DNA of 64,000 nucleotides, from the NCBI RefSeq assembly GCF_000744705.1, contig NZ_JQML01000001.1:4970017-5034016 (forward strand), read 5' to 3'. A program made the translations under genes and the position numbers. The first letter of the stretch is position 1; every line of letters starts with the position of its first letter. Source of the stretch: Streptacidiphilus albus JL83. GTDB lineage: Bacteria > Actinomycetota > Actinomycetes > Streptomycetales > Streptomycetaceae. Shown one piece after another: positions 7,430-20,723 of this stretch. Under the pieces are notes generated by a model. It was not told where the DNA came from. It ran no database searches and saw nothing but the letters and a program-made list of their open reading frames with translations.

Positions 7430-7652
7430 GGGCAGCCCGGGTGCGGTGCCAGTCCGGCCGGTCCTGGAAAGTGGTTGCCTCGGGGACGCACAACTGCGGG
7501 GGCGCGCAGGCGGTATGAACAATCCCGGGATGGGTGATCATCATTGTCACGCAGCGGGGTTGCTGTGCTACGTTCCGTCGCGTACGGATCGACTGATAGA
7601 CCCCGGCGGTGCAGCAACACCCCGGGGCACGGCACCAAGGACTAACCTCCCG

Positions 7653-8888
7653 ATGCACATTCATCGTAGCGTCCAGGACCACGACTTCACCGTTCTTCCG
7701 AACGCGTTGCTCCAGGACCGACGCCTCTCCTTCACTGCTCGCGGCCTCCTCGTGGACCTCCTGTCCCGCCCGGACGGATGGCGCGAGGACGGTCGGCAGA
7801 TGGCCGACAGCAGCCCGCAGGGACGCATGGCCGTGGCCCGTAGCCTGCGGGAACTCACGGCGGCCGGGTACTACCTGGTCGTCAAGGTCCGGCTGCCTGG
7901 CGGCGGTCTGACCAGTGAGGCCCATGTCTGGGACACCCCGCAGCAGGTGGCACCGGATATCACCCGTATGGGTCCCGGTGAATCGGTTGGCGGCGGGCGT
8001 GTCGCCCCAACCCCTAAAGAAACGGGAGAAAGAAACCCCCTCCCCCCACCCCCTCAAGCCGCCGCTGCGGCGGCGGAGTTGGATCAAGGCGGCGGGGCGG
8101 CCGCCGTCGACCTCGGCGATCCGGCGGTCCTCGCCGATCCGGCGGTGGCGGTGCTGCTGCAGGTGATCCGGCCCGAGCCACGGCTGCGGGTCGGCCTGGC
8201 CGAGGCGTTGAAGCTCGCACCGCTGGTCAGGGCCTGGCTGGATCGGGGCTGCACGCAACTGGACCTGTCCCAGGCGCTGTTGCCCGGCCTGCCCGCCTTC
8301 ATCCGCTCCCCGCTGGGGCTGCTCCGCGACCGGCTGACCCGCAAACTCCCGCCGCCGCCCGGCTGGGGCGCGCCGGAGCCCCGGCCGGCCGGGGCCGGGT
8401 CGGCCCCGTCTCCGGCCCCGTCTCCGGCCCCGTCTCCGGCCCCGGCCCCCGCCGGGAACGTGCAGGTCGTCCGGGTGGCGACGGCCGCGCTGGAGTGCGA
8501 GTTGTGCAGAGATCCAGTGCTCGCTCCCGGCATCTGCAAGCCCTGCGCCGGGCTCGGCCGACCAGCGGTGGCCGTGGGCCTCGGCGAGGCCGCGACCGCA
8601 CGCGGAGCGGCGCTGGTCCGCACCGCGCTGGGCGTGCCGTGCGGGGCCTGGCCGACCTCAGCTGAGTCGGGCCCTGTCCGGGGAACATCGGACCGAGGAT
8701 CCCCGGGCAGCAGGTCTGCCGGGCAGCGACGATTTTCGAACGCCACCGGGGGCGGCACTCGGGCACAGCGGATCGGCGATCCGTCGTCGGTGGTGGTCCG
8801 TGGGACCGCCGGTGCATGCGCCACTGATCGGCTATGGCTCGGCACCCTGGTTACGTCTGTCAATCCTCGTTCACCCATCACGGGCTGA
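7653..8888 (+). CDS. HTH-domain protein (replication-initiator-like), C-terminus fused to LLM remnant
   Basis: The start at ATG 7653 gives MHIHRSVQDHDFTVLPNALL. The N-terminal ~95 residues form a winged-helix domain (LSFTARGLLVDLLSRPDGW and MAVARSLRELTAAGYY) of the sort seen in plasmid- and AICE-type helix-turn-helix proteins of Streptomyces. The middle is low-complexity Pro/Ala (repeated PSPAPSPAP), and a zinc-ribbon-like CELCRDPVLAPGICKPC lies near residue 284. The frame then runs through about 220 bases that do not look coding and ends inside an LLM gene remnant with LGTLVTSVNPRSPITG. The native C-terminus was therefore probably replaced when the island formed. The function may be DNA binding or replication control. 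Confidence 0.7.
   Translation: MHIHRSVQDHDFTVLPNALLQDRRLSFTARGLLVDLLSRPDGWREDGRQMADSSPQGRMAVARSLRELTAAGYYLVVKVRLPGGGLTSEAHVWDTPQQVAPDITRMGPGESVGGGRVAPTPKETGERNPLPPPPQAAAAAAELDQGGGAAAVDLGDPAVLADPAVAVLLQVIRPEPRLRVGLAEALKLAPLVRAWLDRGCTQLDLSQALLPGLPAFIRSPLGLLRDRLTRKLPPPPGWGAPEPRPAGAGSAPSPAPSPAPSPAPAPAGNVQVVRVATAALECELCRDPVLAPGICKPCAGLGRPAVAVGLGEAATARGAALVRTALGVPCGAWPTSAESGPVRGTSDRGSPGSRSAGQRRFSNATGGGTRAQRIGDPSSVVVRGTAGACATDRLWLGTLVTSVNPRSPITG
8805..8888 (+). pseudogene. LLM oxidoreductase remnant, copy A
   Basis: The last 27 codons before the stop read TAGACATDRLWLGTLVTSVN followed by PRSPITG. They align with residues about 55-81 of the LLM fragment at 10859-11104 (TAAACATERIRLGTLVTSVN, PRSPITA), and the two end at the same codon. 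The DNA match continues past the stop as CTGACCTGCGATGA. No start codon remains, and the remnant is read in frame as the tail of the preceding HTH gene. Confidence 0.8.
8856..8882 (+). repeat. Island core repeat, copy A
   Basis: A 27-bp sequence beginning TCTGTCAATCCTCGTTC and ending CCCATCACG, identical in copies A, B and C and with one mismatch in copy D. It encodes SVNPRSPIT within the LLM reading frame and is followed within one codon by a stop. The LLM stop is followed at once by the 3' end of a minus-strand toxin gene. Confidence 0.88.
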
Positions 8889-8932
8889 CCTGCGATGACG
8901 CAGAGCTGAGCCTGGAACGACCCGACGGCGGC

Positions 8933-9325
8933 TCAGACCTGTTCGACCGCGATGCGGGCGTGACACAGCTGGCGCAGATCCTCGACATCGCTGGTCACGA
9001 CCGTCACATCCCCGTGCTCCAGGTGGGCCGTAGCGGCAAGCATCGCGTCGATGGCGTACTTGTGACCGTGCAGCCCCTCGGCTGCGAGCAGCTTGCTCGC
9101 AGCGCGTGCGATCTCCTCGGTGACCGGGCGCACCTTGGTCAGCGAGACGGCGTGGTCGAATGCCGCCTGCGACAGCTTGGGATCGCGCGCCTCGACCAGC
9201 GTTGCTGCGCTCGTCACGACCAAGAGGTCCAGGGTGCGGGCGACGTCCAGCCACACGGTCATGTCCCGGTGTCGGCGGGAGAGCTTGGAGAGTGCCTCGC
9301 TGTCGAGAACGAGGGTTCCGCTCAC
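8933..9325 (-). CDS. vapC: VapC-type PIN-domain toxin 1
   Basis: A 130-residue PIN-domain ribonuclease. The acidic residues lie where the family needs them: D8 in LVLDSEALSKL, E45 in SAATLVEARD, D95 within GLHGHKYAIDAMLAA and D112 in VTSDVEDL. VapC toxins cleave tRNA or rRNA when not bound by antitoxin. Its start overlaps the antitoxin stop (ATGA at 9322-9325), so the two are translationally coupled. The toxin 2 sequence shares GLHGHKYAIDA, so the two operons are paralogous. The gene ends 44 bp after the LLM remnant stop, at the island core repeat. Confidence 0.9.
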   Translation of the reverse strand: MSGTLVLDSEALSKLSRRHRDMTVWLDVARTLDLLVVTSAATLVEARDPKLSQAAFDHAVSLTKVRPVTEEIARAASKLLAAEGLHGHKYAIDAMLAATAHLEHGDVTVVTSDVEDLRQLCHARIAVEQV

Positions 9326-9603
9326 GCGGCGTCCGCCCCTGCGACGTCACCGCGGTGGGCAGCGTGATGAGCACGGATACGCTCGGCCCTTGCAGCAACC
9401 TCGGTTGTATCGACAGGCCCGTGTTCAGCCTCGGCGGTGGCGATGTACTCGTCGATGGCTTCGCGCTGGAGCTGCCGTTGCACGGCCTCCTCAATGTAGG
9501 AGGAGACTCCCTGCTTCCCGGCGCGTGCGCGGATCGCCTCCAACGTCTCGGCACGCAGGGAGACGCTGGTGACTCGGGTCTTGCCAGAGCGCGGGGTATC
9601 CAT
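9322..9603 (-). CDS. vapB: VapB-type antitoxin 1
   Basis: A 93-residue antitoxin. The N-terminal half (TRVTSVSLRAETLEAIRARA, then GVSSYIEEAVQRQLQRE) looks like a ribbon-helix-helix DNA-binding fold, and the remainder is a helical, charged tail for toxin neutralisation. It precedes and overlaps vapC by four bases. AT-rich sequence just upstream (GTGTAATACATCAC around 9611-9624) is the likely promoter/operator. Autorepression by the complex is typical of the family and is inferred here. Confidence 0.85.
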   Translation of the reverse strand: MDTPRSGKTRVTSVSLRAETLEAIRARAGKQGVSSYIEEAVQRQLQREAIDEYIATAEAEHGPVDTTEVAARAERIRAHHAAHRGDVAGADAA

Positions 9604-9705
9604 GCACCAAAGTGTAATACATCACCTATCAAGCCCGTTCCTGATTCGGGCCGCGCCGGAGTCGTCGACGGGAGCTGATAGGAGGGCGGGCGTGAAGTTC
9701 CGGCT

Positions 9706-9997
9706 TCAGTCGGCCCACTGGCGGTAGGCCTCGATCCACTCCGAGCCCGCCGGGCCTGGGGTGGACAACGGCAGTTCAAGGATCCCGATCGCCTGCCGGG
9801 TGCGGCCGCGAGAGCACAGCGCCGCGGTCCGACCGTCCGGCGCGAGGTCGACACTGCGGACAACCACCTCGACTCCGAGGACTGTGGTGGTGAACGGCAC
9901 GGTCAGGTTCTCCTCCAGCATCGCGAACAGGCCGGTCAGTTGCTCGTCCCCGTTGTAGGCGTCGACGGTGGCTTCATCAATCATGGCGTCGAGTTCC
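9706..9997 (-). pseudogene. Truncated copy of small island protein; start lost
   Basis: A paralogue of the intact gene at 13589-13900. From ELDAMIDEATVDAY to the end (EWIEAYRQWAD) the two proteins are nearly identical. The homology stops exactly at 9997/9998, where the native start (MSTLGKV in the other copy) is replaced by LLM copy B read in antisense. The frame stays open to an ATG at 10065, so a chimeric 119-residue protein could be made, but its first ~22 residues are an accident of the fusion. The family is a ~100-residue protein found in Streptomyces; I cannot assign a firm function. Confidence 0.75.
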
Positions 9998-10001
9998 GAG
10001 T

Positions 10002-10106
10002 TTCGGGGCGGTGCCCACGCTGACCGCCGCCGCGACAGTGACGCAGAGTATGCGTTTGGGTACACTCGCGACGTCTGTCAATCCTCGTTCACCCATCACG
10101 TCCTGA
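10002..10106 (+). pseudogene. LLM oxidoreductase remnant, copy B
   Basis: Thirty-four codons plus stop, reading FGAVPTLTAAATVTQSMRLG, then TLATSVNPRSPITS. The segment resembles the intact gene (ATATQSIRLGTLVTSPN) more than copies A, C and D do up to the core, then switches to the shared core sequence. No start codon is present. It abuts the truncated small gene on its left and the end of vapC2 on its right. Confidence 0.85.
10074..10100 (+). repeat. Island core repeat, copy B
   Basis: Identical over 27 bp to copies A and C, in direct orientation and 1218 bp after copy A. The 3' flank is TCCTGAGCTGCGGAAACG, more diverged than the flanks of A and C but still recognisable. Confidence 0.88.
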
Positions 10107-10148
10107 GCTGCGGAAACGCCTGCCTGGACGTTCTGGGTCCCACTCGGC

Positions 10149-10550
10149 TCAGATCGGGATGAGGCGGACGCGTGTGCCGCAGAGCTTGGCCATGTCGTCG
10201 ACGTCCGAGGTGAGCAGGGCCACTGGTGCCGGCTGGCGCAGAGCCATCTCCGCGACCGTCGCATCGATGGCGTACTTGTGACCGTGGAGACCGGTCTGCT
10301 TCAGCAACTCGGCCGAGGCTCGCGCGGCCTGTTCAGTGACCGCTTCGATCTTGACCTGCGAGAGCACCCAATTCAGCCGAGGGGTGTTCACTCGTGCGTG
10401 CATGACCTCCACGATGGTGTTGGCACAGACCACCAGGTCGGCCGCCATGGAGTGGAAGGAGCGGATCATCGCCAGCACCCCACGGTCCTGTGAGATCCAG
10501 GCGGATACCCCTTGAGAGTCCAGCACCACGGTCTCCACACGTTCGCTCAC
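10149..10550 (-). CDS. vapC: VapC-type PIN-domain toxin 2
   Basis: A 133-residue PIN-domain protein with D11 in TVVLDSQGVSAW, a Glu in NTIVEVMHARV near residue 48, the shared block GLHGHKYAIDATVAE near residue 87 and a late acidic motif TSDVDDMAKL. It is homologous to the toxin at 8933-9325 but clearly diverged, so it is an independent acquisition or an old duplication. The start overlaps the antitoxin stop by four bases. As in unit 1, the toxin 3' end lies about 40 bp beyond an LLM remnant and core repeat. Confidence 0.9.
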   Translation of the reverse strand: MSERVETVVLDSQGVSAWISQDRGVLAMIRSFHSMAADLVVCANTIVEVMHARVNTPRLNWVLSQVKIEAVTEQAARASAELLKQTGLHGHKYAIDATVAEMALRQPAPVALLTSDVDDMAKLCGTRVRLIPI

Positions 10551-10795
10551 GCGGCGTCAGCCGCATTCGCGGAGCCGGCCGAGCCGAAGATCCTTGCCTG
10601 CGCGGCGGCGAGTTCCTCCTCGGTGAAGGCACCGTGCTGCTCCTCGTAGCGCCGCAGTTCCTCGCCGAGCAACTGGTGCCTGATCTGCCGGGCGACCGCC
10701 TCAGCGACATAGCCCGAGACGTTGTCCGTGAGCTTCTTCAGCTCCGCCACCTGTTCAGTGGGCAGGGTAACCGTGATCCGGGTAGTAGCAGCCAT
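10547..10795 (-). CDS. vapB: Antitoxin 2 (RHH-like VapB)
   Basis: An 82-residue protein with TRITVTLPTEQVAELKKL at the N-terminus, a ribbon-helix-helix signature, then VSGYVAEAVARQIRHQLL and an acidic tail. It precedes vapC2 with an ATGA overlap. A perfect inverted repeat begins eight bases upstream of its start and should serve as the autoregulatory operator. Confidence 0.85.
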   Translation of the reverse strand: MAATTRITVTLPTEQVAELKKLTDNVSGYVAEAVARQIRHQLLGEELRRYEEQHGAFTEEELAAAQARIFGSAGSANAADAA

Positions 10796-10802
10796 GAATC
10801 AA

Positions 10803-10818
10803 GCATACTGCGGTATGC
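10803..10818 (-). promoter_or_regulatory. Operator palindrome of vapB2
   Basis: A perfect inverted repeat, GCATAC-TGCG-GTATGC, directly upstream of ATG 10795. It also lies 41 bp upstream of the divergent LLM fragment. Its position fits binding by the RHH antitoxin. Confidence 0.65.
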
Positions 10819-10858
10819 CTCATGTGCGACGGACTTTCGCGGGCATAGCGTCGGCGGT

Positions 10859-11104
10859 ATGCGTCTGAGTACTGTGATTCTGCCGATCCACCGCTGGTCC
10901 GAGGGACGGAAGGTGTGGCGGCGGGCCGAGGAGCTGGGTTTCCACGCCGCCTACACCTACGACCACCTCTCCTGGCGGTCCTTCCGGGACGAGCCCTGGT
11001 TCGGGGCGGTGCCGACGTTGACGGCCGCGGCCTGCGCCACCGAGCGGATCCGGCTCGGAACGCTTGTGACCTCTGTCAATCCTCGTTCACCCATCACGGC
11101 TTGA
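10859..11104 (+). pseudogene. LLM oxidoreductase 5' fragment, copy C (81 codons)
   Basis: Starts with ATG and MRLSTVILPIHRWSEGRKVW and is nearly identical to the intact LLM protein at 14537-15424 through TLTAA. It then reads CATERIRLGTLVTSVN, PRSPITA and stops after 81 codons at the core repeat. The catalytic and cofactor-binding parts downstream are absent. Copy D has exactly the same length and end point. It could still be translated as a short peptide. Confidence 0.88.
11072..11098 (+). repeat. Island core repeat, copy C
   Basis: Identical to copies A and B over 27 bp and 998 bp after copy B. The flank CGGCTTGACCTGCGATGATC continues the match to copy A. The HEPN toxin gene ends 44 bp further on. 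Confidence 0.88.
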
Positions 11105-11141
11105 CCTGCGATGATCTGCGTCGGCCGAAGCCGACGCAGGG

Positions 11142-11606
11142 TCAGAAGGGGCTCATCTCATCGAGGACGCGCGCTGCGAGGTCGATGATTGCCTTGACCT
11201 TTGGAGCGTCATTGGCCACGTCCTGGGCTTCGATCTCGGGTGAGTCGAGATCCGCGTACTCCGCCTGATTCCGGCGTCGGCGCATTCGGTCGAAGGGCCT
11301 GAGAGCCGCCCCGAGAGGCGGGTCGAGCTGCGCACTGACGGCTTCGAGGACCGCGATGTGGCCACCGCGACTGGTAGGTCGTAGCCCTTGGTTCTCCAGG
11401 ACCGCGACCAGTGCTTTGCGCGCCGCGTCGTACAGCAACTGGTACGCGCCGATGGCGTCGATGGCAACAATCGCCTGGGCAGCGGTCAGATGGTTCGATG
11501 CCTGGGCGAGGAGGTTGTCGGCCTGTTCCCGGCTCGCGGGTACCCGCTCCAACTCCTTGCGCGCGAGCATGCCTTCCAATGCGGCGCGGCCTTGCTGCCA
11601 CTTCAT
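11142..11606 (-). CDS. HEPN-domain protein of MNT-HEPN toxin-antitoxin pair
   Basis: A 154-residue all-helical protein. The start WQQGRAALEGMLARKELERV, the central LLYDAARKALVAVLENQGLR and the motif RMRRRRNQAEYADL near residue 110 fit HEPN proteins. The canonical Rx4-6H RNase motif here has Tyr in place of His (RNxxEY), as in some actinobacterial HEPN subfamilies, so activity cannot be assumed. It overlaps the preceding nucleotidyltransferase gene by four bases. In type VII systems the MNT protein inactivates the HEPN toxin by AMPylation or direct binding. Confidence 0.8.
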   Translation of the reverse strand: MKWQQGRAALEGMLARKELERVPASREQADNLLAQASNHLTAAQAIVAIDAIGAYQLLYDAARKALVAVLENQGLRPTSRGGHIAVLEAVSAQLDPPLGAALRPFDRMRRRRNQAEYADLDSPEIEAQDVANDAPKVKAIIDLAARVLDEMSPF

Positions 11607-12202
11607 TCCCTGCCCTTCCTTTCGAAGGCTTCGAGTCGGACCGTCGGCCGGCTTCGGACGGACGTGAGAAACGGGTCCGCACCCGGATCGCGCCAGCGCT
11701 CGGGCGATACCCGATGGACGTTGACCTCTCGGCCGAGAAGCCGCTCGGCTCCGCGTGCGGCCTCGTACAGCTCGTCCTCATCGGGGTTCCCGACGACGAG
11801 AACGTCGACGTCCTTGGGTACCCCGCCACGTTCTCCGGAGTAGCGGGCAGCCCAGGAACCGTAGATGTGGGCTTCCTCCACGCCGGCCAGTGGCAGCACC
11901 AGATCCCCGAGGACCGCGATCGGGCCGTAGGTGAGAGAGAAGAGCTCGGTCAGCGGGGCCGCCAGTCGTCCGTCGACATTGGCCCGCAGCAGGCGGAGGT
12001 TGCCGTGGCGTCGCTCTGTGATCAGCTCTGCCTCGGCCAGCCGGTCCGCCTCCCGGCTCGCGGTCGCGCTCGAGACTCCGAAACGGGAGGCGATCTCCGT
12101 AAGTGAAGTCTCTTCCTGTGGATGCAGATACAGCCAGGCCAGCAGCTCCCCCAGAAAGGGGGTGCGCAGGAGCGGCAACAGCGCAGACGGGGGACCTTGC
12201 AT
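11603..12202 (-). CDS. wHTH-nucleotidyltransferase (MNT) antitoxin
   Basis: The N-terminal ~90 residues form a winged helix (TSLTEIASRFGVSSATASRE). The C-terminal domain is a minimal nucleotidyltransferase with IYGSWAARYSGERG and KDVDVLVVG (the G-S-x(n)-DxD signature) and a further acidic region. ATG 12202 is preferred over TTG 12232 because the longer form would place its codons inside an inverted-repeat operator. With the overlapping HEPN gene it makes an MNT-HEPN module, with the DNA-binding domain fused to the antitoxin. Confidence 0.82.
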   Translation of the reverse strand: MQGPPSALLPLLRTPFLGELLAWLYLHPQEETSLTEIASRFGVSSATASREADRLAEAELITERRHGNLRLLRANVDGRLAAPLTELFSLTYGPIAVLGDLVLPLAGVEEAHIYGSWAARYSGERGGVPKDVDVLVVGNPDEDELYEAARGAERLLGREVNVHRVSPERWRDPGADPFLTSVRSRPTVRLEAFERKGRE

Positions 12203-12232
12203 AACTTGAAGAGTAGCTTGCAACTTATGCAA
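12197..12232 (-). promoter_or_regulatory. Inverted-repeat operator overlapping the MNT start codon
   Basis: Two 12-bp arms, TTGCATAACTTG (12197-12208) and CAACTTATGCAA (12221-12232), match at 11 of 12 positions around a 12-bp spacer. The start codon CAT (minus-strand ATG 12202) lies in the left arm. Binding by the winged-helix antitoxin would block initiation, which suggests autorepression. Confidence 0.65.
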
Positions 12233-12274
12233 GTAGCCAAGGCGGGAGTCGCTTTTCGCTCTTACGGGTGAGCA

Positions 12275-13537
12275 TCAGGAGGTCAGCGCCCGAGACCGGG
12301 CCCGCTTCTGCTTTCCGAGCCTGGCGCTACCGCTGCTCTCCCCGAGCGCGAGCTCACTGAGGCGGGTGCCGATCACCGAGACACCGGGGCGGGGCGCATG
12401 CTCGTAGTACCAGGCCTTGCGTTGACGAAGCAGTGCCTCGCCATGCTCGGACCAGCTGAACTCCGGCTTTCGCAGGATCTTCCTGAACACCGTATCGACT
12501 GTCTCCGGGTGGGAGGTAGCGAGGCGGCGCAGTGGTAGCGGGGCGATTGTCCGCTCCCGGAGGTAGGCACGCAGCGTGTCGCTGTGCGCCTTGCTGGTCG
12601 TGAGGGCGGGATTGGCGAAGAGGTCTCGCAGCATCCCGTAGTCCGGGTAAAAGTTCATTCCGTCTACGTCGTCGTAGATGACGCCCACGGTGTCCGAGTC
12701 CGTGAGTTCTTCTGGCAGTTCGAACAAGGGCGAGTCCACCCGAGGCAGGCGCCTGCCTCGGGTCTTGACCGGTGATTTGGCGAGCACGGCCTCCTGTCGG
12801 TGCCGGTAGTAGGCGTTGAGCCGTGCTTCCGCCTCGGCGGGGGACAGGATCAGCTCGTCGCCTCCGCAGTATTCGATGAAGGCGGCTCTGTCCTGTCGCA
12901 TCTGTTGCCAGCCCTGTTCGACCTTCTCCGGGTTGCGGAAGACCAGCTCCGGTTGGCCGACCGCCAGTTGAAGTGCGGCCTGAGCGATCCCCGAAGCATT
13001 GGATTTGGGGTAGTACGACAGCGCTCCGGAGACGAGCCAGACTCCGTCGGCCGAGTGGACGGGCACGAGTCGGGCGAGCAGGAATCCTCCTCTGCTCATC
13101 CCACGAAAGGTGGCCCTCCCGACATTCGAGTATGTGTGGTACTCAAGGTCGTCGATCAGGTTGAGGAGGACGACCGCATCGCCGTCCTTGCGCTCAACCT
13201 CGAAGATCCCCTCCACCGGGTCGCGCCATCCGAGCAGCATCTCTCGGTCAGCCTCAATCAGGTCCCGACGTCCGGCGACAAACCGGTCCACCACAGTCGT
13301 CCCGTTCGGCAGGCGGTACTGCAGGGCGAAGTGGTCAATGATGTTGATCGCCCGGCCCTCGTCCAACTGCCGCTCAGGACCGGCAGCCTCCAGCAGGACG
13401 GGCGTCAACCAGCGATCAAAGCGCGCACTCTGTGTGAAAGCGACCAACTCCCCCTTCAGCTCAGCACTGCGCTCGATGAGGGCGATGAGCGACTGTTCGT
13501 CGTCGCTCCGGTTCGCATCGCTGGGACTGCGGGCCAC
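12275..13537 (-). CDS. Uncharacterised 420-residue island protein
   Basis: A soluble protein starting at GTG 13537, with GGAAAGG upstream. I do not recognise a family. Visible features: a conserved-looking central block FEVERKDGDAVVLLNLIDDL and YHTYSNVGRATFRGMSRGGF (residues ~110-150), SYYPKSNASGIAQAALQLAV, an acidic VIYDDVDGMNFYPDYGMLRD near residue 292, and a basic tail ending KKRARS-like. No membrane segment, Walker motif or nuclease signature is evident. It lies upstream of the MNT-HEPN pair on the same strand, separated by about 40 bp from the operator, and downstream of the small island gene. Its position in a toxin-rich island makes a defence role possible, but this is a guess. Confidence 0.6.
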   Translation of the reverse strand: MARSPSDANRSDDEQSLIALIERSAELKGELVAFTQSARFDRWLTPVLLEAAGPERQLDEGRAINIIDHFALQYRLPNGTTVVDRFVAGRRDLIEADREMLLGWRDPVEGIFEVERKDGDAVVLLNLIDDLEYHTYSNVGRATFRGMSRGGFLLARLVPVHSADGVWLVSGALSYYPKSNASGIAQAALQLAVGQPELVFRNPEKVEQGWQQMRQDRAAFIEYCGGDELILSPAEAEARLNAYYRHRQEAVLAKSPVKTRGRRLPRVDSPLFELPEELTDSDTVGVIYDDVDGMNFYPDYGMLRDLFANPALTTSKAHSDTLRAYLRERTIAPLPLRRLATSHPETVDTVFRKILRKPEFSWSEHGEALLRQRKAWYYEHAPRPGVSVIGTRLSELALGESSGSARLGKQKRARSRALTS

Positions 13538-13588
13538 AATCTGCCTTTCCGTGCAAGCCGATTCGAGGGCGGGCGGGCAATGCCGGCT

Positions 13589-13900
13589 TCAGCCGGCCCA
13601 CTGGCGGTAGGCCTCGATCCACTCCGAGCCCTCCGGGCCGGAGGTGGGCAACGGCAGTTCCAGGATCCCGATCGCCTGCCGGGTGCGGTCGCGAGAGCAC
13701 AGCGCCACAATCCGACCGTCCGGCGTGAGGTCGACGCCGCGGACAACCACCTCGACTCCGAGGACTGTAGTGGTGAACGGCACGGCCAGGTTCTCCTCCA
13801 GCATCGTGAACAGGCCGGTCAGTTGCTCGTCCTCGTTGAAGGCGTCGACGGTGGCTTCATCGATCATGGCGTCGAGTTCCACCTTACCCAACGTACTCAT
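13589..13900 (-). CDS. Small conserved island protein (intact copy)
   Basis: A 103-residue acidic protein, MSTLGKVELDAMIDEATVDA to EWIEAYRQWAG. The centre reads VPFTTTVLGVEVVVRGVDLTPDGRI, suggesting a small beta-rich fold, and the end is aromatic and acidic. Such proteins recur in Streptomyces, where some are labelled calcium-binding on weak grounds. A truncated duplicate lies at 9706-9997 and shares about 40 bp of 3' flank (TTCAGYCGGCCCACTGGCGG). Duplication inside the island suggests this gene travels with the toxin-antitoxin modules. Confidence 0.7.
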   Translation of the reverse strand: MSTLGKVELDAMIDEATVDAFNEDEQLTGLFTMLEENLAVPFTTTVLGVEVVVRGVDLTPDGRIVALCSRDRTRQAIGILELPLPTSGPEGSEWIEAYRQWAG

Positions 13901-13967
13901 GGCACTACCGTAACGGTCTCGAAGGCAGTGACGACACGCCTTCCGGAACCTGGTTCGAGAACGCTTA

Positions 13968-14340
13968 CGTCGGGTATTTAGCCGAGAGACCTTCCCGTCG
14001 CTTCCACCAGGACAGTGGTGGCTCAGAAGGAACCCCGCCTACGCAGCCCGACGCTGCTGCTCGGAGTTCGAGTCGGCCTACCGCGTGCCCGTACGCCCCC
14101 GGTCGCGCTACGACGACGCCCTGTCCGAACAGGCCGCCCCAGGCCTCACACCGACCGAAGCATGTCTGTCCCTCCGGGCTTCGGACCGCTATGCCGCCGG
14201 CGTCGACGGCCTGTTCCTGCGTGCCGTACGTGAGGCCTTCGGCCTCGACCGCAAGGAACCCAGAGCACTCTGGTCATGGCTCACCGGCGAGAGCACCGAC
14301 ACCGAACTCCGGGCAGCCCTCCGTCTACACCTAGCACGGC
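13968..14340 (+). pseudogene. 5'-truncated paralogue of the RHS-associated immunity gene
   Basis: Reading RRVFSRETFPSLPPGQWWLR then NPAYAARRCCSEFESAYRVP and TPTEACLSLRASDRYAAGVD, this segment matches residues ~89-210 of the protein at 16325-16963 (RDSFPSFPSDQWWLRSSPSY, ESAYGVHVRAQSRFDDDVAE, ALWSWLTG). The start and first ~88 codons are missing. After ALWSWLTGESTDTELRAALR the match ends, and the frame runs on into non-homologous sequence to 14546. It lacks any associated RHS toxin, so it is an orphan immunity remnant. Confidence 0.8.
13981..13997 (+). repeat. 17-bp direct repeat, left copy
   Basis: GCCGAGAGACCTTCCCG, repeated with one mismatch as GCCGAGAGACGTTCCCG at 15432-15448. The pair brackets the immunity remnant and the intact LLM gene in the same orientation. 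Confidence 0.55.
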
Positions 14341-14536
14341 CACGGCCGCCAGAGCTCCGCTCCATGGGCACGGCTGGCTACGTAGTCGATGAAGTCAGCT
14401 GCGTCGAACTCGGATTTCTGGGGCGTGGCTCGACGTCAACCCAGCGTCCCGTACAACGTTCAGGCCCGCCAGCATTTCATCCGTACGGGGGCAGAGCCGC
14501 GTTCCCAGGCGTGTACGGTCCCGTAGGGTCGGATTC

Positions 14537-15424
14537 ATGCGTCTAAGCACTGTGATTCTGCCGATCCACCGATGGAGCGAGGGGCAGAGGGTCTGGCAGC
14601 GGGCCGAGGAACTCGGTTTCCATGCGGCCTACACCTACGACCACCTCTCATGGCGATCCTTCCGGGACGAGCCCTGGTTTGGGGCCGTGCCAACTCTGAC
14701 TGCTGCCGCGACGGCTACTCAGAGTATCCGACTGGGCACACTTGTAACCTCGCCCAACTTCCGTCATCCAGTGACGCTGGCGAAGGAGCTCCTGACTGTC
14801 GACGACATCTCGGGCGGTCGCCTGTCGGTGGGGATCGGTGTGGGCGGCACCGGCTTTGATGCGACGGCGTTGGGACAGGAAGAGTGGACCGCGCGGCAGC
14901 GGGCAGACCGGTTCGACGAGTTCCTGCCGCTACTGGACAAGTTGCTGACGCAGGACTCGACCACCGAGAAGGGCACGTACTACTCCGCCGTCGAGGCCCG
15001 GAACATTCCAGGTTGTGTGCAGCAGCCCCGGGTGCCCTTCTATGTGGCGGCCACCGGCCCGCGGGGGCTGAAACTCGCTGCCGAATACGGCCAGGGCTGG
15101 GTCAGCTACGGTGACCCGCGCGGCCCTGCCGACGTCGCCGTCGAGCAGGCTCCGGCCGTGATCGAGGCCCAACTCGGCAAGCTCCGCACCGCTTGCGAGG
15201 CTCAGGGGCGGGACTATACGGCGCTGCGCAAGGTGCTGCTCCAGGGCTCCACCGCCGAGCAGCCGCTGCAGTCCCTCGACGCGTTCGTCGACTATGCCGG
15301 CACCTACCAGGCGCTGGGCATCGACGAGATCGTTATCCACTGGCCGGTCCCCGACTCCATCTTCGCCAATGACCTGACCGTCTTCGAGCAGATCGCCACC
15401 GAGGGCCTCGCCCAGCTCGGCTGA
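14537..15424 (+). CDS. LLM-class (F420/luciferase-like) oxidoreductase, intact
   Basis: A 295-residue TIM-barrel flavin/F420-dependent oxidoreductase: MRLSTVILPIHRWSEGQRVW, AYTYDHLSWRSFRDEPWFGA, IRLGTLVTSPNFRHPVTLAK, GGRLSVGIGVGG and VPFYVAATGPRGLKLAAEYG are typical blocks. Family members transfer hydride between F420H2 or FMNH2 and diverse substrates, and the substrate is unknown. This is the only full copy. Four partial copies nearby break at its codon ~81, where this gene reads SPNFRHPVT and the fragments read SVNPRSPIT. The stop is followed 7 bp later by the second copy of the 17-bp repeat. Confidence 0.9.
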   Translation: MRLSTVILPIHRWSEGQRVWQRAEELGFHAAYTYDHLSWRSFRDEPWFGAVPTLTAAATATQSIRLGTLVTSPNFRHPVTLAKELLTVDDISGGRLSVGIGVGGTGFDATALGQEEWTARQRADRFDEFLPLLDKLLTQDSTTEKGTYYSAVEARNIPGCVQQPRVPFYVAATGPRGLKLAAEYGQGWVSYGDPRGPADVAVEQAPAVIEAQLGKLRTACEAQGRDYTALRKVLLQGSTAEQPLQSLDAFVDYAGTYQALGIDEIVIHWPVPDSIFANDLTVFEQIATEGLAQLG

Positions 15425-15431
15425 TCAGCTC

Positions 15432-15448
15432 GCCGAGAGACGTTCCCG
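15432..15448 (+). repeat. 17-bp direct repeat, right copy
   Basis: GCCGAGAGACGTTCCCG, a 16/17 match to 13981-13997, positioned between the stop of the intact LLM gene and core repeat D. Confidence 0.55.
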
Positions 15449-15452
15449 CAGG

Positions 15453-15698
15453 TCAGACCGTGATGGGTGAACGAGGATCGACAGAGGTCACCAGCGTGCC
15501 CAACGGGATCCGCTCCGTCGCCGTGGTGGCGGCCGTCAGCGTCGGCACCGCCCCGGACCACGGTTCGTCCAGGAACGACCGCCACGACAGATGGTCGTAG
15601 GTGTAGGCGGCGTGGATCCCGAGCTCCTCGGCCCGCTGCCAGACCTTCTGCCCGTCGGACCAGCGGTGAATCGGCAAAATCGCTGTGCTCAGTCTCAT
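15453..15698 (-). pseudogene. LLM oxidoreductase 5' fragment, copy D (81 codons, inverted)
   Basis: On the minus strand, ATG 15698 opens MRLSTAILPIHRWSDGQKVW, and the frame ends after 81 codons with GTLVTSVDPRSPITV. It is the same length and has the same end point as copy C but points towards the 3' end of the intact LLM gene. It differs from copy C at several codons, so the copies are not recent identical duplicates. Confidence 0.88.
15459..15485 (-). repeat. Island core repeat, copy D (inverted)
   Basis: Reverse complement of the 27-bp core with a single change (GTCGATCC for GTCAATCC). The flank on its 3' side reads GTCTGACCTGCGGGAACG, so the CTGACCTGCG extension of copies A and C is also present. 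Confidence 0.85.
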
Positions 15699-16088: not shown

Positions 16089-16399
16089 CCAGCGCAAGGA
16101 CCGCTGTCGTGATCGAGTCCGACCTCATGACCAAGCCTCTGGTGGACCTCTTGCTGCGTGGTCTGGAGCACAGTGGAACCCGCCCGGGCCGACTACGAGC
16201 TCAGGGCGTCGGAGGGCTCGGAGCGCGACGGGTGACCGAGGCTCGGCCGGGACAGCCGCAGTGGCCGGCCCCGCCGGAGTGGCCGGCCCCGCCGACGCGC
16301 TGCTCAGCAGGTGGAGCCGTGCGGCTAGGCCTGGTCGAGGGCCGCCCGGAGGTCGGTGTCGGTGGTCCTGCCGGTGAGCCACGACCAGAGGGCCCTTGA
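16085..16399 (+). CDS. Possible truncated gene following HTH gene
   Basis: ATG 16085 overlaps the HTH stop (ATGA), suggesting a coupled gene. The first ~35 residues, MTSARTAVVIESDLMTKPLV then DLLLRGLEHSGTRPGR, look protein-like. Beyond about 16195 the sequence becomes Pro/Gly/Arg-rich, and from 16325 it lies antisense to the immunity gene, so the real 3' part is probably lost. I cannot assign a family. The open frame may be only a remnant. Confidence 0.3.
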   Translation: MTSARTAVVIESDLMTKPLVDLLLRGLEHSGTRPGRLRAQGVGGLGARRVTEARPGQPQWPAPPEWPAPPTRCSAGGAVRLGLVEGRPEVGVGGPAGEPRPEGP

Positions 16400-16963
16400 G
16401 GCCTTCCGGTCGAGGCCGAGGGCTTCGCGGGCGGCGCGCAGGAACAGGCTGTCCGTGGCGGCGACATAGTGGTTCGAAGCCCGGAGGCGGAGGCACGCCT
16501 CGGCCGGCGTGAGTCCGCCGGCGACCAGTCCGGACAGCTCGGCCACATCGTCGTCGAAGCGCGACTGGGCGCGGACGTGCACGCCGTACGCCGACTCGAA
16601 CTCCGCACAGAAGCTCCGGGCCGCGTAGGACGGGCTGCTCCGCAGCCACCACTGGTCGCTGGGGAACGACGGGAACGAGTCCCGGTCCAGTACCTTCCGG
16701 ACGTCCAGGTCGGTCCGCTCGATCCCGGCACGGAACGCGTCCGCCGCGGAACCGGTCAGCTGCGGCAGTACCTCCGAGACCAGCGTCCGCATCGTCAGGT
16801 CGTTGAGGTAGTCCTCAAGGTCCCAGGGATAGCCGGCCAGGCAGTCGGCGGCGAACCGCTGCCATCGCTCCGAGACCTCCCCGGGGGAGGCCTCGGTACG
16901 CCAGCCCTTGTCGACGAAGGCCTGGGCGAAGCCTCGGTCGAACCCGCTCCCGCTATCTCCCAC
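16325..16963 (-). CDS. Presumed immunity protein of RHS toxin
   Basis: A 212-residue soluble protein from GTG 16963, overlapping the end of the RHS gene by 11 bases on the same strand. The sequence is acidic and aromatic-rich (WDLEDYLNDLTMRTLVSEV, DQWWLRSSPSYAARSFCAEF, SLFLRAAREALGLDRKASRA, LWSWLTGRTTDTDLRAAL). I recognise no named domain. Position immediately after a polymorphic toxin gene is the classic place for the cognate immunity protein, so this role is inferred from context. A truncated paralogue is found at 13968-14340 in the toxin-antitoxin island. Confidence 0.65.
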   Translation of the reverse strand: MGDSGSGFDRGFAQAFVDKGWRTEASPGEVSERWQRFAADCLAGYPWDLEDYLNDLTMRTLVSEVLPQLTGSAADAFRAGIERTDLDVRKVLDRDSFPSFPSDQWWLRSSPSYAARSFCAEFESAYGVHVRAQSRFDDDVAELSGLVAGGLTPAEACLRLRASNHYVAATDSLFLRAAREALGLDRKASRALWSWLTGRTTDTDLRAALDQA

Positions 16964-19900
16964 TCTCGTTCTCCATGTACTTGACTGGGTCGTCCGGCCG
17001 GAAGAAGTTCGTGATCTTGCCGTTCTGTCCGATCACGAGCCGGCCTGTCGGTGTGTGCAGTCGAAGGATCGCACCGTCGCCGGAGCGGGTCACCTCGCGG
17101 ATCTGCGGGGTCAGCGGGCCGTTCATCAGGCCTTCGGCATCCTGCTCGTACCGGCTGAAGCCGTCATCGTCGTCGTCCTGGTCCTTGTACTCGGGCATGT
17201 CGGCGGACTCGCCGGGACGTTTGCCCTGCCCGAGGACATGCTTGTCGTACTTCTCGTCGATCTTCGCGGGATCCCATTTCATGGGTGCGTGCGGGGAGAG
17301 ACCGAGCGGGTCGGACCAGGTGTGCGGGTTGTGGACGTAGGTGTCCGGATTCGGCGCCGGAGCGAGGCCGAGCGGATCCGGGGTGGCGTAGCGGGCCGTC
17401 TCGGGGTCGTAGTACCGGTGCAGGTTGTAGTGGAGCCGCGTCTCGGGGTCGAAGTACTGGCCGGGGAAGCGCAGCGGGGTGTAGGCGGCACTGTCCCGGG
17501 GCCAGGTGGTGTTGCCCCAGAGGGTCTTGGTGGCTTGCCAGGAGACGCCTTCGGTGGCCGGGTCGACCAGTTCGGTGGGAGCGCCGGCGAGGTCGGTGAC
17601 GATGGCGAAGAAGCGCCGGTCGATCCGGTCCTGCTCGGAGGTCCGGCTGGTGATGGTCTCGGTCTGGGCCAGCGGACGCCATCCCCGGTGGTCCCAGCTG
17701 AGCGTGTAGGGACCGGGAAGGTAGGGGGCGTGGGTGGTCTGCTCCGCGAGGTGCGAGCCGTCCCAGGTGAACTCGACGCGTTCCTCGACCGCCGAGCCGT
17801 CGGCGCTGAGGCGCTCCTTCGAGATGCGGCGCCCGAGCGGGTCGTAGCGGTAGCGCCAGGAGGTACCGTCCGGGGTGACGACGCCGGTGAGGCGGTCCTC
17901 GGAGTCCCAGGCGTAGTGCCAGGTGTCCGGCTTCCTGGACAGGCGGGTCTTCTGCCGGACGACGGTGCGGCCCGAGGCGTCGTACTCGTAGCGGACCCGC
18001 CCGGCGGTGGCCAGTTGGGTGCCCTCGTAGGTGCGGGCGCCGAGCGCGGCATCGGCCGCCCCTCCGGCGGGCCACCGGGCATCGACGAGGTTGCCGGTCG
18101 GGTCGTAGGCGTAGGTCTCGTTCCAGTCCTCCGCCCGGACGGCGGTGACCCGGCCGGTCCGGTCCAGCTCGAACGTGCGCTCGGCGGCCGTCCGGTCGGT
18201 GATGCCGATCAGGCTTCCGTCCGCCTGGTAGCGGTAGCCGCGCTGCCGCAGGGTGGCGGAGCTGCTGCGGAGGCTCTGCGCGGTGAGCCGGTGCCGTCCG
18301 TCCCAGGAACTGCTGAGGGTCACGGATCCGCCGACGGTCCGCTCGCACTCGCGCCCGGCGGCGTCGTAGCTGAAGTCGAGCGTTCCGCCGGACGTCGCCA
18401 GCCCGGTCGCCCGACCGGCGCCGTCGTAGGTCCAGTCGCTGGTGTGCCCGGTGGGCATGATCCGCCGGGTCCGACGGCCGAGGACGTCACGATGATGGAC
18501 GAGCGTGCGACCGTTGACGGTCTCGGTCAGCAGGTTGCCGAGCGCGTCGACGGTTCGGGAGAGCTCGGCATCCGGATTGGCGGCACCGATCAGGTGTCCG
18601 GCGGCGTCGTACGCGTAGGTGCTGACCCGACCGTCGGCGTCCTTGGCGACGACCCGGCCGAGCCGGTCGTAGCCGTACCGGGTCCGCCGGCCGCGCGGGT
18701 CGGTCACCTCCGTCAGGCAACCGGACGCGTCGAAACCGTAGTTGACCGTGCGTCCGTGGAAGTCGCACTCGCTGACGACCCGTCCGGCCGGGTCGTACGC
18801 GTAGGTCCACTGCCGGCCGAGCGGGTCGGCGACGGCGACGAGCCGCATGTTCCGGTCGTAGCCGAAGGAGTGGCGCGCGCCGTCGGGGGTGGTGCGCGCG
18901 GCGAGCGTCTCGAAGTGGGTGTACTCGTAGGTGGTGGTCCGGCCGAGCTGGTCGGTACGGGCGAGCATGTTCCCCTCGCCGTCGTACGTCCAGCTCTCGG
19001 CGGCGCCGTCGGGAGTGGTCCGGAGGGCCAGCCGGCCCTCGACGGTCCAGGCCATCCGGGTGACGCCACCGAGCGGATCGGTGACGGCGGTGGAGCGGCC
19101 GAAGGCGTCGCGCTCGAACCTGGTCGTCGCCCCGGTCGGGCCGGTCACCTCGACCGGAAGGCCGGCGGCGTCGCAGCGCAGCCGGGTGACCCAGCCGAGT
19201 CCGTCGGTGACCGCCGCCAGGTGGCCGAGACCGTCGTACTCGTACCGCGTGACGGCGCCCAGCGGATCGGTGAGCGTGGTGCGACGCCCGTGGTCGTCAT
19301 AGGTCTGCCGCCAGGTCGCGCCACCGGGAGCGGTGACGGTGGTCGGCAGACTGAGGGAGTGGGCGTAGGCCGCGTCGCTCCGCTCGCCGTCGGGGCGGGT
19401 GACCGAGATCAGGTCACCGGCCCCGTCGTAGGTGTAACGGGTGGTGTGGCCGAGGGGGTTGGTCTCCGCGAGGAGTCGGTCGTGGAAGTCCCGTTCGTAG
19501 CGGGTGGTGTTGCCCAGCGGGTCGGTGATCGCGACTATCTGGTGTCGCTCGTTGACCTCGTAGGCGGTGGTGTGGCCGAGGGCGTCGGTCTCCGTGTGGG
19601 TCCGTAGGCCGGTGTCGGGGTCCGGGTCGCCGTAGCGGAAGGCGAAGTGGAGCGAGCCGTCTGCTCCGCCCTCGTCCAGCACCCGTCCGGCCGCGTCGTA
19701 GACGTACTGGTAGTGGCTGTCGTTGCGGTCGGTCCAGGAGGTGATCCGGCCCCAGGCGTCGTTGGCGAAGCGCATGGGCAGGCCGGAGGAGTTGTGGACC
19801 TCGCTGAGGTGGCCGTCGGTGTAGCCGTACCGCAGCAGTGACTGGTCGCCGCCGTCCTGGGCCGCGCCTGCGAGCAGGAGTTCGGTGATGCGTCCGTCGG

Positions 19901-20723
19901 CGACGGTGACCAGGAGTCGGTATCCGCCGGAGTGGGTGATGGCCTGCGGGGTGCCGTCGCGGTCGTAGGCGAGGGTGTAGTGGTCGCCGTTGCGGTTGCC
20001 CAGCCTGGTCAGCAGGGCTTCCCGGCCGCCCGGTTGGACGGTGAACTCGCGGACGAGACCGCTCGCGCGGTCGGTGAGGGTGTAGCCGCGCTCGCCGTAG
20101 TCGACGCTCAGGTCGCATCGGGCTCCGGCGGTGGCCCGGACCGGAGCGCCGGGGTCGGGGTGGGGGTAGGCCTGGGTGCGGCGGTCGGCGCCGAGGTGGA
20201 CCACGCCTTCGTCGTCGATCTCCAGGCGTTCGTCGAAGGTGCAGACCCAGCGGCGGCCCATCCAGCGTCCGGCCCGGTAGCCGGACTCGAAGCAGCGGGT
20301 GAACTCCAGCGGCAGGCTTCCGGGCAGGAAGGCGTCCGTCTGGTCGATGAACATCCGGCCGGTGGCCATGTCCACGGGCTCACCGCCGTCGCAGACAGCG
20401 TCCGGCGGACGGCCGGCGTCGTGCGGATCCGATACCTGGTCCCGACCGCTGCCACTGGGCTCGTCCCCGCGCGGTGAGGGGGCGTCCGGCGTGCCGCCCT
20501 CGGCCGGGTGCGGGTCGGTGACCTCGGTCCTGGGGTGCTCACCGGCCTTGCCGAGGTCCTCGACCGTCTTCGCCTCGTTGTCGGCGGCATGGTCGGCGAC
20601 CTGCCCGGTCTTCTCCTCGGTGTCCTTGAGGATGTCGTGGTAGCCAGTGGCGAAGTCCTTGGCCAAGCCCTGCTCGGCCTTCTTCGCCGCGTCCTCCAGC
20701 GCGTGCGCTATCTGCCCGCTCAC
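16953..20723 (-). CDS. RHS/YD-repeat polymorphic toxin
   Basis: A 1256-residue RHS protein. The N-terminus is a helical, charged ~110-residue leader without a signal peptide. A DUF6531-type domain follows (GEPVDMATGRMFIDQTDAFL near residue 115), then over twenty YD repeats (such as TTYEYTHFETLAART and RYEYDGLGHLAAVTD) that build the beta-cage, and the core-end signature YYDPETARYATPDPLGLAP. The last ~114 residues are the variable toxin tip, starting near MKWDPAKIDEKYDKHVLGQG and ending ITNFFRPDDPVKYMENE. The His in KHVLGQG and the late TGRLVIGQNGKITNFF recall BECR-type RNase toxins, but this is tentative. The secretion route is not visible in the window. Confidence 0.88.
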   Translation of the reverse strand: MSGQIAHALEDAAKKAEQGLAKDFATGYHDILKDTEEKTGQVADHAADNEAKTVEDLGKAGEHPRTEVTDPHPAEGGTPDAPSPRGDEPSGSGRDQVSDPHDAGRPPDAVCDGGEPVDMATGRMFIDQTDAFLPGSLPLEFTRCFESGYRAGRWMGRRWVCTFDERLEIDDEGVVHLGADRRTQAYPHPDPGAPVRATAGARCDLSVDYGERGYTLTDRASGLVREFTVQPGGREALLTRLGNRNGDHYTLAYDRDGTPQAITHSGGYRLLVTVADGRITELLLAGAAQDGGDQSLLRYGYTDGHLSEVHNSSGLPMRFANDAWGRITSWTDRNDSHYQYVYDAAGRVLDEGGADGSLHFAFRYGDPDPDTGLRTHTETDALGHTTAYEVNERHQIVAITDPLGNTTRYERDFHDRLLAETNPLGHTTRYTYDGAGDLISVTRPDGERSDAAYAHSLSLPTTVTAPGGATWRQTYDDHGRRTTLTDPLGAVTRYEYDGLGHLAAVTDGLGWVTRLRCDAAGLPVEVTGPTGATTRFERDAFGRSTAVTDPLGGVTRMAWTVEGRLALRTTPDGAAESWTYDGEGNMLARTDQLGRTTTYEYTHFETLAARTTPDGARHSFGYDRNMRLVAVADPLGRQWTYAYDPAGRVVSECDFHGRTVNYGFDASGCLTEVTDPRGRRTRYGYDRLGRVVAKDADGRVSTYAYDAAGHLIGAANPDAELSRTVDALGNLLTETVNGRTLVHHRDVLGRRTRRIMPTGHTSDWTYDGAGRATGLATSGGTLDFSYDAAGRECERTVGGSVTLSSSWDGRHRLTAQSLRSSSATLRQRGYRYQADGSLIGITDRTAAERTFELDRTGRVTAVRAEDWNETYAYDPTGNLVDARWPAGGAADAALGARTYEGTQLATAGRVRYEYDASGRTVVRQKTRLSRKPDTWHYAWDSEDRLTGVVTPDGTSWRYRYDPLGRRISKERLSADGSAVEERVEFTWDGSHLAEQTTHAPYLPGPYTLSWDHRGWRPLAQTETITSRTSEQDRIDRRFFAIVTDLAGAPTELVDPATEGVSWQATKTLWGNTTWPRDSAAYTPLRFPGQYFDPETRLHYNLHRYYDPETARYATPDPLGLAPAPNPDTYVHNPHTWSDPLGLSPHAPMKWDPAKIDEKYDKHVLGQGKRPGESADMPEYKDQDDDDDGFSRYEQDAEGLMNGPLTPQIREVTRSGDGAILRLHTPTGRLVIGQNGKITNFFRPDDPVKYMENESGR

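Follow-up and report, generated by a model that had tools for sequence, protein, structure and literature searches.

How did a conserved metabolic gene come to be broken repeatedly at one and the same codon, with toxin-like genes beside the breaks? The question is raised by a 64,000-nucleotide stretch of the Streptacidiphilus albus JL83 genome (9.9 Mb; contig NZ_JQML01000001.1), henceforth the window, in which one intact LLM class oxidoreductase gene (14537-15424, plus strand; Bac_luciferase PF00296, 1.1e-41), referred to as LLM, is accompanied by four partial copies, A to D. All coordinates are positions within the window. The initial annotation had placed these five sequences correctly, and all four partial copies stop at codon 71. 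Integration inside a gene normally uses up the attachment site (attB) that the gene provides, and repeated accretion at one mid-gene site therefore needs an explanation. The explanation advanced here, which we regard as very probable, is that LLM codon 71/72 serves as attB for a group (clade) of large serine integrases encoded on integrative, apparently mobilizable elements, and that copies A to D are scars of such elements.

LLM fragments and the site at codon 72

The 27-bp core TCTGTCAATCCTCGTTCACCCATCACG was found identically at 8856, 10074 and 11072 on the plus strand and with one mismatch at 15459 on the minus strand. No further copy with three or fewer mismatches was detected elsewhere in the genome, and the reversed-pattern control gave no match. 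Homology of the fragments to LLM ends at codon 71/72, directly before the core. The core extends the LLM reading frame by nine codons, followed by one further codon and a stop, and was therefore mistaken for part of the gene; the earlier claim that the copies break inside the core holds for the common codon but not for the core as LLM sequence. The core is foreign DNA rather than LLM and represents one arm (P') of the attP of a serine recombinase, each fragment being a putative attL scar.

Copy A (8805-8855, plus strand) is a decayed LLM N-terminal remnant that would form the left half, or B arm, of its attL; it keeps the LLM frame to codon 71, and its last 17 codons align in register. It is followed by attL site A (8856-8894, plus strand), made up of the crossover dinucleotide TC and the P' arm, that is, the 27-bp core plus 12 bp, with no mismatch to the resulting 39-bp pattern and with conservation edges at 0 and +38. 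Copy B (10002-10073, plus strand) is an N-terminal remnant in frame and ending at codon 71, and copy C (10859-11071, plus strand) contains the complete codons 1-71 at 88% amino acid identity to LLM 1-80, with a promoter-like element before the ATG. The attL sites of both, B (10074-10112) and C (11072-11110), lie on the plus strand and differ from the 39-bp pattern by one mismatch each. When site B was compared with genome G011 (genomes and loci are designated by G and L numbers), identity rose from 57% to 97% between adjoining 40-bp blocks that meet at the site. Copy D (15486-15698, minus strand) is inverted, comprises codons 1-71 at 80% amino acid identity, and ends at the likewise inverted site D (15447-15485, minus strand; one mismatch to the pattern), which lies 22 bp beyond the stop codon of the full LLM gene. 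Copy D, listed earlier among the copies that break at the common codon, shares the junction of the others, but the gene convergent on it is the full LLM itself and not a toxin gene. The full gene contains an intact attB around codons 71/72, with the crossover TC at 14750-14751.

Two further features of the LLM copies were observed. A TAGGGT-like hexamer lies a few bases before the ATG in most copies (window starts 14537 and 10859, and relatives), with sequence farther upstream varying between genomes, which suggests leaderless transcription of LLM. Inverted repeats at 13973-14321 and 16337-16694 (74-79%) match the region before the full LLM gene to a small gene beyond copy D, suggesting that the upstream neighbour of LLM was duplicated along with it.

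The site recurs well outside the window. The 27-bp core was found in 22 of 394 genomes of the family Streptomycetaceae and the wider 39-bp pattern in 59 of 388, spread over 7 of 17 genera, with no match to the reversed control; in a class sample of 296 genomes, most of them outside the family, the window's own genome was the only match. A core confined to this locus, which the initial annotation would have read as chance rearrangement, is thus not what is observed. LLM itself belongs to the core genome of the family (147 of 150 genomes). All 55 N-terminal LLM fragments (LLM-N) that were identified by protein homology alone and reach codon 66 or beyond have the core where it is expected, none with more than 8 of 27 mismatches; most of these loci had been fetched because the core was present. 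Where loci were instead fetched by the position of LLM, a set that includes genomes in which the core was already known, it was at the expected codon in 18 of 18, versus 13 of 20,000 random places, some of which may be real sites. Between genera, identity reached 0.82 for the core and 0.77 for the 12 bp after it, compared with 0.46 at LLM third codon positions and 0.32 beyond +38, which identifies a sharp-edged DNA element of about 39 bp at codon 72. The site starts with TC in 118 of 121 instances, a dinucleotide that the search pattern itself includes.

The P' arm was also found apart from LLM. A search of 72,556 plasmid records gave one clear site match, in Streptomyces camelliae NZ_CP115301.1, where the truncated start of another gene takes the place of LLM to the left of TC and the junction again reads GACC|TC. 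Two relatives of the truncated gene sit directly before an AbiEii toxin gene, and the corresponding position reads TACGACCTC in one and TACGACCTG in the other; by its position the plasmid gene is AbiEi-like. Presence of the P' arm in a plasmid gene other than LLM indicates that the arm belongs to the element and travels without LLM.

Serine integrase, attachment sites and carried LLM genes

The counterpart of the fragments was found in genome G123, where an LLM piece starting exactly at codon 72 is preceded by ...GAACGAGGCTTGGGC and then by a broken serine-recombinase gene. The sequence GAACGAGGCTTGGGC mirrors GGTCAAGCCTCGTTC of the core. An attR of this form (P arm, TC, LLM from codon 72) lies beside a serine recombinase in six genomes: G084, G134, G018, G271, G168 and G123. 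The recombinase is 477 amino acids long in the first five and broken in G123, and its gene is roughly 30 bp from the attR junction. Five of the six junctions were found via the integrase, using the G123 recombinase piece as query, which gave 17 matches in 13 genomes at E <= 1e-45 (71 genomes searched). The six closest matches (G123 and five at 87-96%) all adjoin C-terminal LLM pieces (LLM-C) cut at codon 72, and only these six of the 17 adjoin an LLM piece of at least 57% identity. From the side of the LLM-C pieces, an integrase gene adjoins six of the seven junctions at codon 72. Resolvase, Recombinase and Zn_ribbon_recom domains were identified in both full-length integrases tested (Pfam and PADLOC tests covered chosen proteins), and three other full-length integrases align over all 477 residues at 82-96% identity to that of G134. 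The initial annotation saw no recombinase in the window, which was borne out, and proposed looking for one linked to the core elsewhere; a search of the window's own genome with one homolog likewise gave none, and relatives carry it next to a matching attR.

The P and P' arms are inverted repeats around TC, with a mean of 14.4 matches in 24 positions (range 10-17) over seven attL-attR pairs, which are not independent as their arms are related to one another. None of 10,000 shuffles was as good, the best reaching 9.4. When the flanks were joined, the LLM frame read across the junction in all seven pairs and contained no stop in six, the exception being G123 with a stop at residue 267. The attR junctions, the dyad and the rejoined frame together identify attP as P-TC-P' and attB as LLM around codons 71/72.

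The remaining eleven integrase matches are more distant (68-84%), and ten of them have no LLM match within a 3.4-kb stretch (L212, L213, L214, L216-L222). At the eleventh, L215 (G010:C1:5492504), the neighbour of the sister integrase (78%) is a distant LLM-family piece (34% identity) starting at codon 74; the integrase perhaps belongs to a sister element using the matching codon of an LLM paralog. The sister integrases at loci with no LLM match could help to map how the target changed.

To delimit the elements, the nearest attL in the same orientation was taken as the presumed partner of each attR. With this pairing the elements span about 17.7 kb (G084), 18.2 kb (G168), 22.4 kb (G271), 36.6 kb (G134) and 39.7 kb (G018), and that of G123 is nested, decayed and about 3.3 kb long. 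A relaxase domain (PF03432) was detected in all three candidate proteins tested (G084, G168, G271) and MobC in the one tested (G084); in G134 and G018, similar open reading frames (ORFs) were recognized by eye. Integrase and relaxase therefore occur together in G084, G168 and G271, as in integrative and mobilizable elements (IMEs). G168 additionally has a DnaB-like helicase and DUF2637, the cargo of G134 includes matches to Gabija and to type I restriction-modification, and that of G018 a match to Lamassu. Phage structural genes were not noticed in the element gene lists, in which no search was aimed at them.

Inside 6 of 6 elements lies a second, full LLM gene, inverted relative to the split LLM of the host. 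Ungapped amino acid identity between the C-terminal part of the carried gene and the split host gene was 74% in G084, 62% in G271, 74% in G134, 74% in G018 and 36% in the decayed G123. In G084 and G168 the carried gene abuts the P' arm, the same way round as the full LLM and site D of the window. A tree was built from 90 sequences covering at least 181 amino acids of LLM-C, drawn from 62 loci and later ones as a subset of the genomes. The split host copies of G018 and G134 grouped with full genes of their genus (100/98), and the carried copies of G134, G018, G084 and G123 fell in another clade (100/98) of the same genus. That clade also includes the split host copy of G084 and the only full LLM of G120, G090, G081, G075 and G140, in which LLM may have been replaced by a mobile version, unless these genomes represent the donor lineage. 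The full LLM of the window falls among those of its own genus. What the sequences show directly is the att anatomy, the integrases and the second complete LLM in each of the six elements.

The sequence of events that would connect these observations is as follows. The integrase would catalyse recombination between attP and attB, splitting LLM at TC into attL (codons 1-71 plus the P' arm) and attR (the P arm plus codons 72-295). A carried LLM copy would keep the host LLM-positive and supply a fresh attB at which new elements could land, and if the copy does reopen attB, repeated accretion would be explained. Older elements would lose the integrase and attR and remain as attL scars, and loss-resistant DNA next to the P' arm, mostly toxin-antitoxin (TA) pairs, would stay with them. 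Homologous recombination between inverted or repeated LLM copies could then reshuffle the array, flip pieces and restore LLM in line with it. The assignment of particular attL sites to attR partners is provisional. The central part of this scheme is a self-renewing dock: by interrupting a conserved metabolic gene at codon 72 and bringing in a complete foreign version of it at the same time, the element would repair its host and reopen its own attB. This part appears likely, with distinctly less assurance than the site-specific integration itself.

Applied to the window, the scheme gives a tentative order of events. Copies A, B and C are oriented as the full LLM, and D is opposite, the same way as the HAD gene at 795-1643; LLM and HAD share an orientation in Streptomyces loci L107-L109. 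Copy D may thus be a scar in an older LLM, with A to C as scars of later insertions into a carried one. Elsewhere, inverted LLM-C pieces within arrays (L046, L205, L183, L103) fit a flip between inverted LLM copies and do not prove it.

Cargo genes and the weighing of explanations

Minus-strand, convergent toxin-like 3' ends were reported directly after copies A, B and C, and they are indeed there, 51 bp (PIN), 49 bp (VapC-like, weak) and 44 bp (HEPN, below cut-off) past the core. The cargo at site A (VapBC1; 8933-9603, minus strand) consists of a PIN-domain toxin (8933-9325, PF01850) and a partner ORF (9322-9603) with no Pfam match, and the pair lies at a similar distance from the site in further genomes. 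At site B the cargo (VapBC2; 10149-10795, minus strand) is a VapC-like toxin (10149-10550; weak NCBIfam VapC match, 1.5e-3) with a CcdA-like antitoxin (10547-10795, just below the Pfam cut-off), a pair that recurs across genomes. Site C is bordered by a HEPN toxin-like gene (11142-11606; PF05168 just under cut-off) and a partner bearing a MarR-type helix-turn-helix (HTH) domain (11603-12232), together 11142-12232 on the minus strand, which match the PADLOC candidate system PDC-M05A/B. To the left of copy A, within an ORF at 7446-8888, an HTH-like gene (7653-8663, plus strand) shows 48-49% identity over about 310-345 amino acids to a gene near the integrase in the elements and is, on this resemblance, a probable remnant of an integrative element.

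Across genomes, 117 of the 121 sites were kept for a census of bordering genes (at most three mismatches, or ..TS at the junction). At 70 of the 117 the bordering gene is a toxin gene, whole or in part, of one of four kinds: vapC1 29, vapC2 29, DUF5615 7 and HEPN 5. The others are bordered by a convergent LLM gene or piece (7), by another listed gene (10) or by no listed gene within 260 bp (30). Toxins scattered at random distances had been named as a further sign of chance rearrangement, but the 3' ends follow the 39-bp site at similar distances, the medians of the four families being about 35-51 bp. Counted from the toxin side, in a census that includes one locus twice (L059/L119), the core is at the 3' end of 41 of 58 toxin genes. 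Right-hand cassette ends are near-fixed as well; in 8 of 10 cases, for example, 61-63 bp separate vapB2 from the LLM start codon that follows. The units had been described as TA cassettes; toxins do occur at many sites, but the cargo is not exclusively TA, since integrative elements with mixed contents (Gabija, Lamassu and type I restriction-modification matches) use the same site. The original idea, site-specific accretion at a single codon of a single gene, is supported by the recurrence of the site, the six integrase-attR junctions and the near-fixed toxin distances.

Several neighbouring genes were noted. An unannotated minus-strand pair, 12275-13537 (420 amino acids, p420) and 13589-13900 (103 amino acids), recurs beside LLM-N in many arrays, and part of the 13589-13900 gene is duplicated at 9673-9972. 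There are 1169 homologs of p420, with no known domain. Considered at first as a mobilisation factor, p420 could be placed in no family of Pfam, NCBIfam or PADLOC with the thresholds applied, and it was treated as cargo; its single sub-cut-off Pfam match had an E value of 0.1, and its structure model (mean pLDDT, the predicted local distance difference test score, of 60) gave no fold match at E <= 0.001. An RNA element at the locus was likewise discarded, as the two Rfam matches were both far under their family cut-offs. Beside copy D, at 16325-20723 on the minus strand, are a large polymorphic-toxin-like gene (1256 amino acids, labelled by eye) and a small downstream partner, relatives of which flank arrays elsewhere. 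At L049/L050 (G010), Wadjet JetC-like and DruE-like genes lie between two P' sites about 16 kb apart.

Several results weigh against the proposed integration and decay of elements. The window contains no integrase, no attR and no LLM C-terminal fragment, so that it does not have the form of a cis-mobilizable element (CIME), which keeps both attL and attR, and the single-homolog search of its genome was negative at E <= 1e-45. The seventh LLM-C junction (G083) lacks both the integrase and the mirror arm, with the HTH-like element gene in their place. Viral contigs contained neither the exact 22-base core nor the full attP dyad; an 18-letter P' pattern matched seven of them (L223-L229), and phage records gave no match. 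From the toxin side, 17 of 58 toxin genes, including 7 of 10 DUF5615, do not have the core at the 3' end. The proposed decay would in addition have to provide the cassettes with a new LLM N-terminus at their right end. In none of the six elements does a complete listed TA pair adjoin the P' arm nearest attR, where the neighbours are LLM (G084, G168), other genes (G271, G134), p420 (G123) and a piece of vapC2 (G018); the next P' arm outward in G018 does border a complete TA pair. The link from element to TA scar is accordingly a presumed one. Toxin genes are found next to most scars, whereas most integrase-bearing elements have none at the P' arm, a pattern that would fit a role against loss of integrated DNA.

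The arrays themselves also preserve little of the expected history. Fragment decay does not increase with distance from the full LLM (age gradient P = 0.72), and LLM-N does not clearly track cargo: the association with the right-hand cargo label (P = 0.0005) is driven by full genes labelled LLM-C and falls to 0.056 for fragments alone, that with the left-hand label gave 0.35 and 0.20, and when the LLM-C label was omitted one of ten tests reached P = 0.013 with the rest above 0.3. In a change-point analysis of 35 pairs, restricted to those with at least 85% identity over 300 bp downstream, many pairs showed no identity change at the junction and clear breaks were mainly in the window's genus. 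These three results indicate that the arrays have been heavily shuffled by homologous recombination.

The same absence of identity breaks would be expected if a single ancestral fusion of LLM-N, core and toxin had spread solely through duplication and through homologous recombination of LLM-N repeats, with the core playing no part in recombination. The LLM-N copies are 200-bp repeats able to recombine, and cassette order is shuffled between genomes. Such a fusion is nevertheless improbable, as it does not account for attR and integrase at the same codon in six genomes, for the P/P' dyad, for a core more conserved than LLM third positions, for several unrelated cargo families at a similar distance, or for the same P' arm in a plasmid gene other than LLM. 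An integron-like cassette system served by a tyrosine recombinase elsewhere in the genome is less probable still. The small-cassette arrays with near-fixed ends and TA cargo do resemble chromosomal integron arrays; the tyrosine recombinase family is, however, present in 18 of 18 genomes with none, among the matches listed, within about 100 kb of the site, and it is a serine integrase that is found at attR, with the site forming one half of the attP dyad. Nothing was found in favour of an assembly artefact or a chance rearrangement. Either is refuted by recurrence of the site, since the 59 genomes (of 388) that have it were assembled separately and include several single-contig ones, and deserves hardly any credence.

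The most serious competitor accepts site-specific integration at codon 71/72 and disputes the function of the carried gene, attributing it to chance carriage or separate transfers unrelated to rescue or renewal of attB. LLM may be dispensable, as 3 of 150 family genomes had no match at the threshold used, and the full LLM of the window belongs to its own genus lineage. A full inverted LLM in all six elements, and carried copies in G134 and G018 that group apart from the split copies of their hosts, count against chance carriage, which we consider unlikely without dismissing it.

Significance and known systems

A carried copy of the target gene is a simple and testable explanation of repeated accretion. 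If correct, the self-renewing dock would make one core gene a permanent landing site for TA and anti-phage genes, mobile LLM versions could displace the native gene, and the arrangement would be a natural counterpart of engineered disrupt-and-rescue gene drives. The 39-bp site is a marker for TA and defence cargo in Streptomycetaceae, including the unannotated p420 gene pair, and the integrases with their deduced attP and attB could become chromosome-integration tools for actinomycetes.

The phiC31-type phage integrases of Streptomyces are large serine recombinases with an imperfect-dyad attP and a dinucleotide crossover. The present integrases share these three properties, and the elements differ in carrying relaxase genes.

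Serine-recombinase IMEs and tandem accretion of integrative elements have been described already (PMC5704250). IMEs resemble the present elements in having a serine recombinase, a protein-gene target and relaxase and MobC domains; according to that review their insertions disrupt genes dispensable to the host, whereas here six elements carry a complete copy of the gene that is broken. The CIMEs and ICESt1-type tandem accretions (PMC5704250) are alike in the site-specific stacking of decayed elements at one locus, but the present scars show no attR, and renewal would act through the attB that a complete LLM copy contains. In the Dehalococcoides ssrA genomic islands (PMC3146451), serine-recombinase islands are likewise stacked at one gene and leave repeated fragments; their target is the 3' end of the tmRNA gene, whereas the present elements enter a protein gene at mid-length and bring a whole copy of it with them. 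Literature searches, which do not prove absence from print, returned no paper on integration into an LLM oxidoreductase gene, nor any account of elements that carry a complete target gene and would thereby renew attB. The initial annotation's statement that no system with this arrangement had been described therefore needs to be narrowed: tandem accretion of integrative elements is known (PMC5704250), as are mobilizable elements with serine integrases, and what would be new is the mid-gene dock renewed by a carried target gene.

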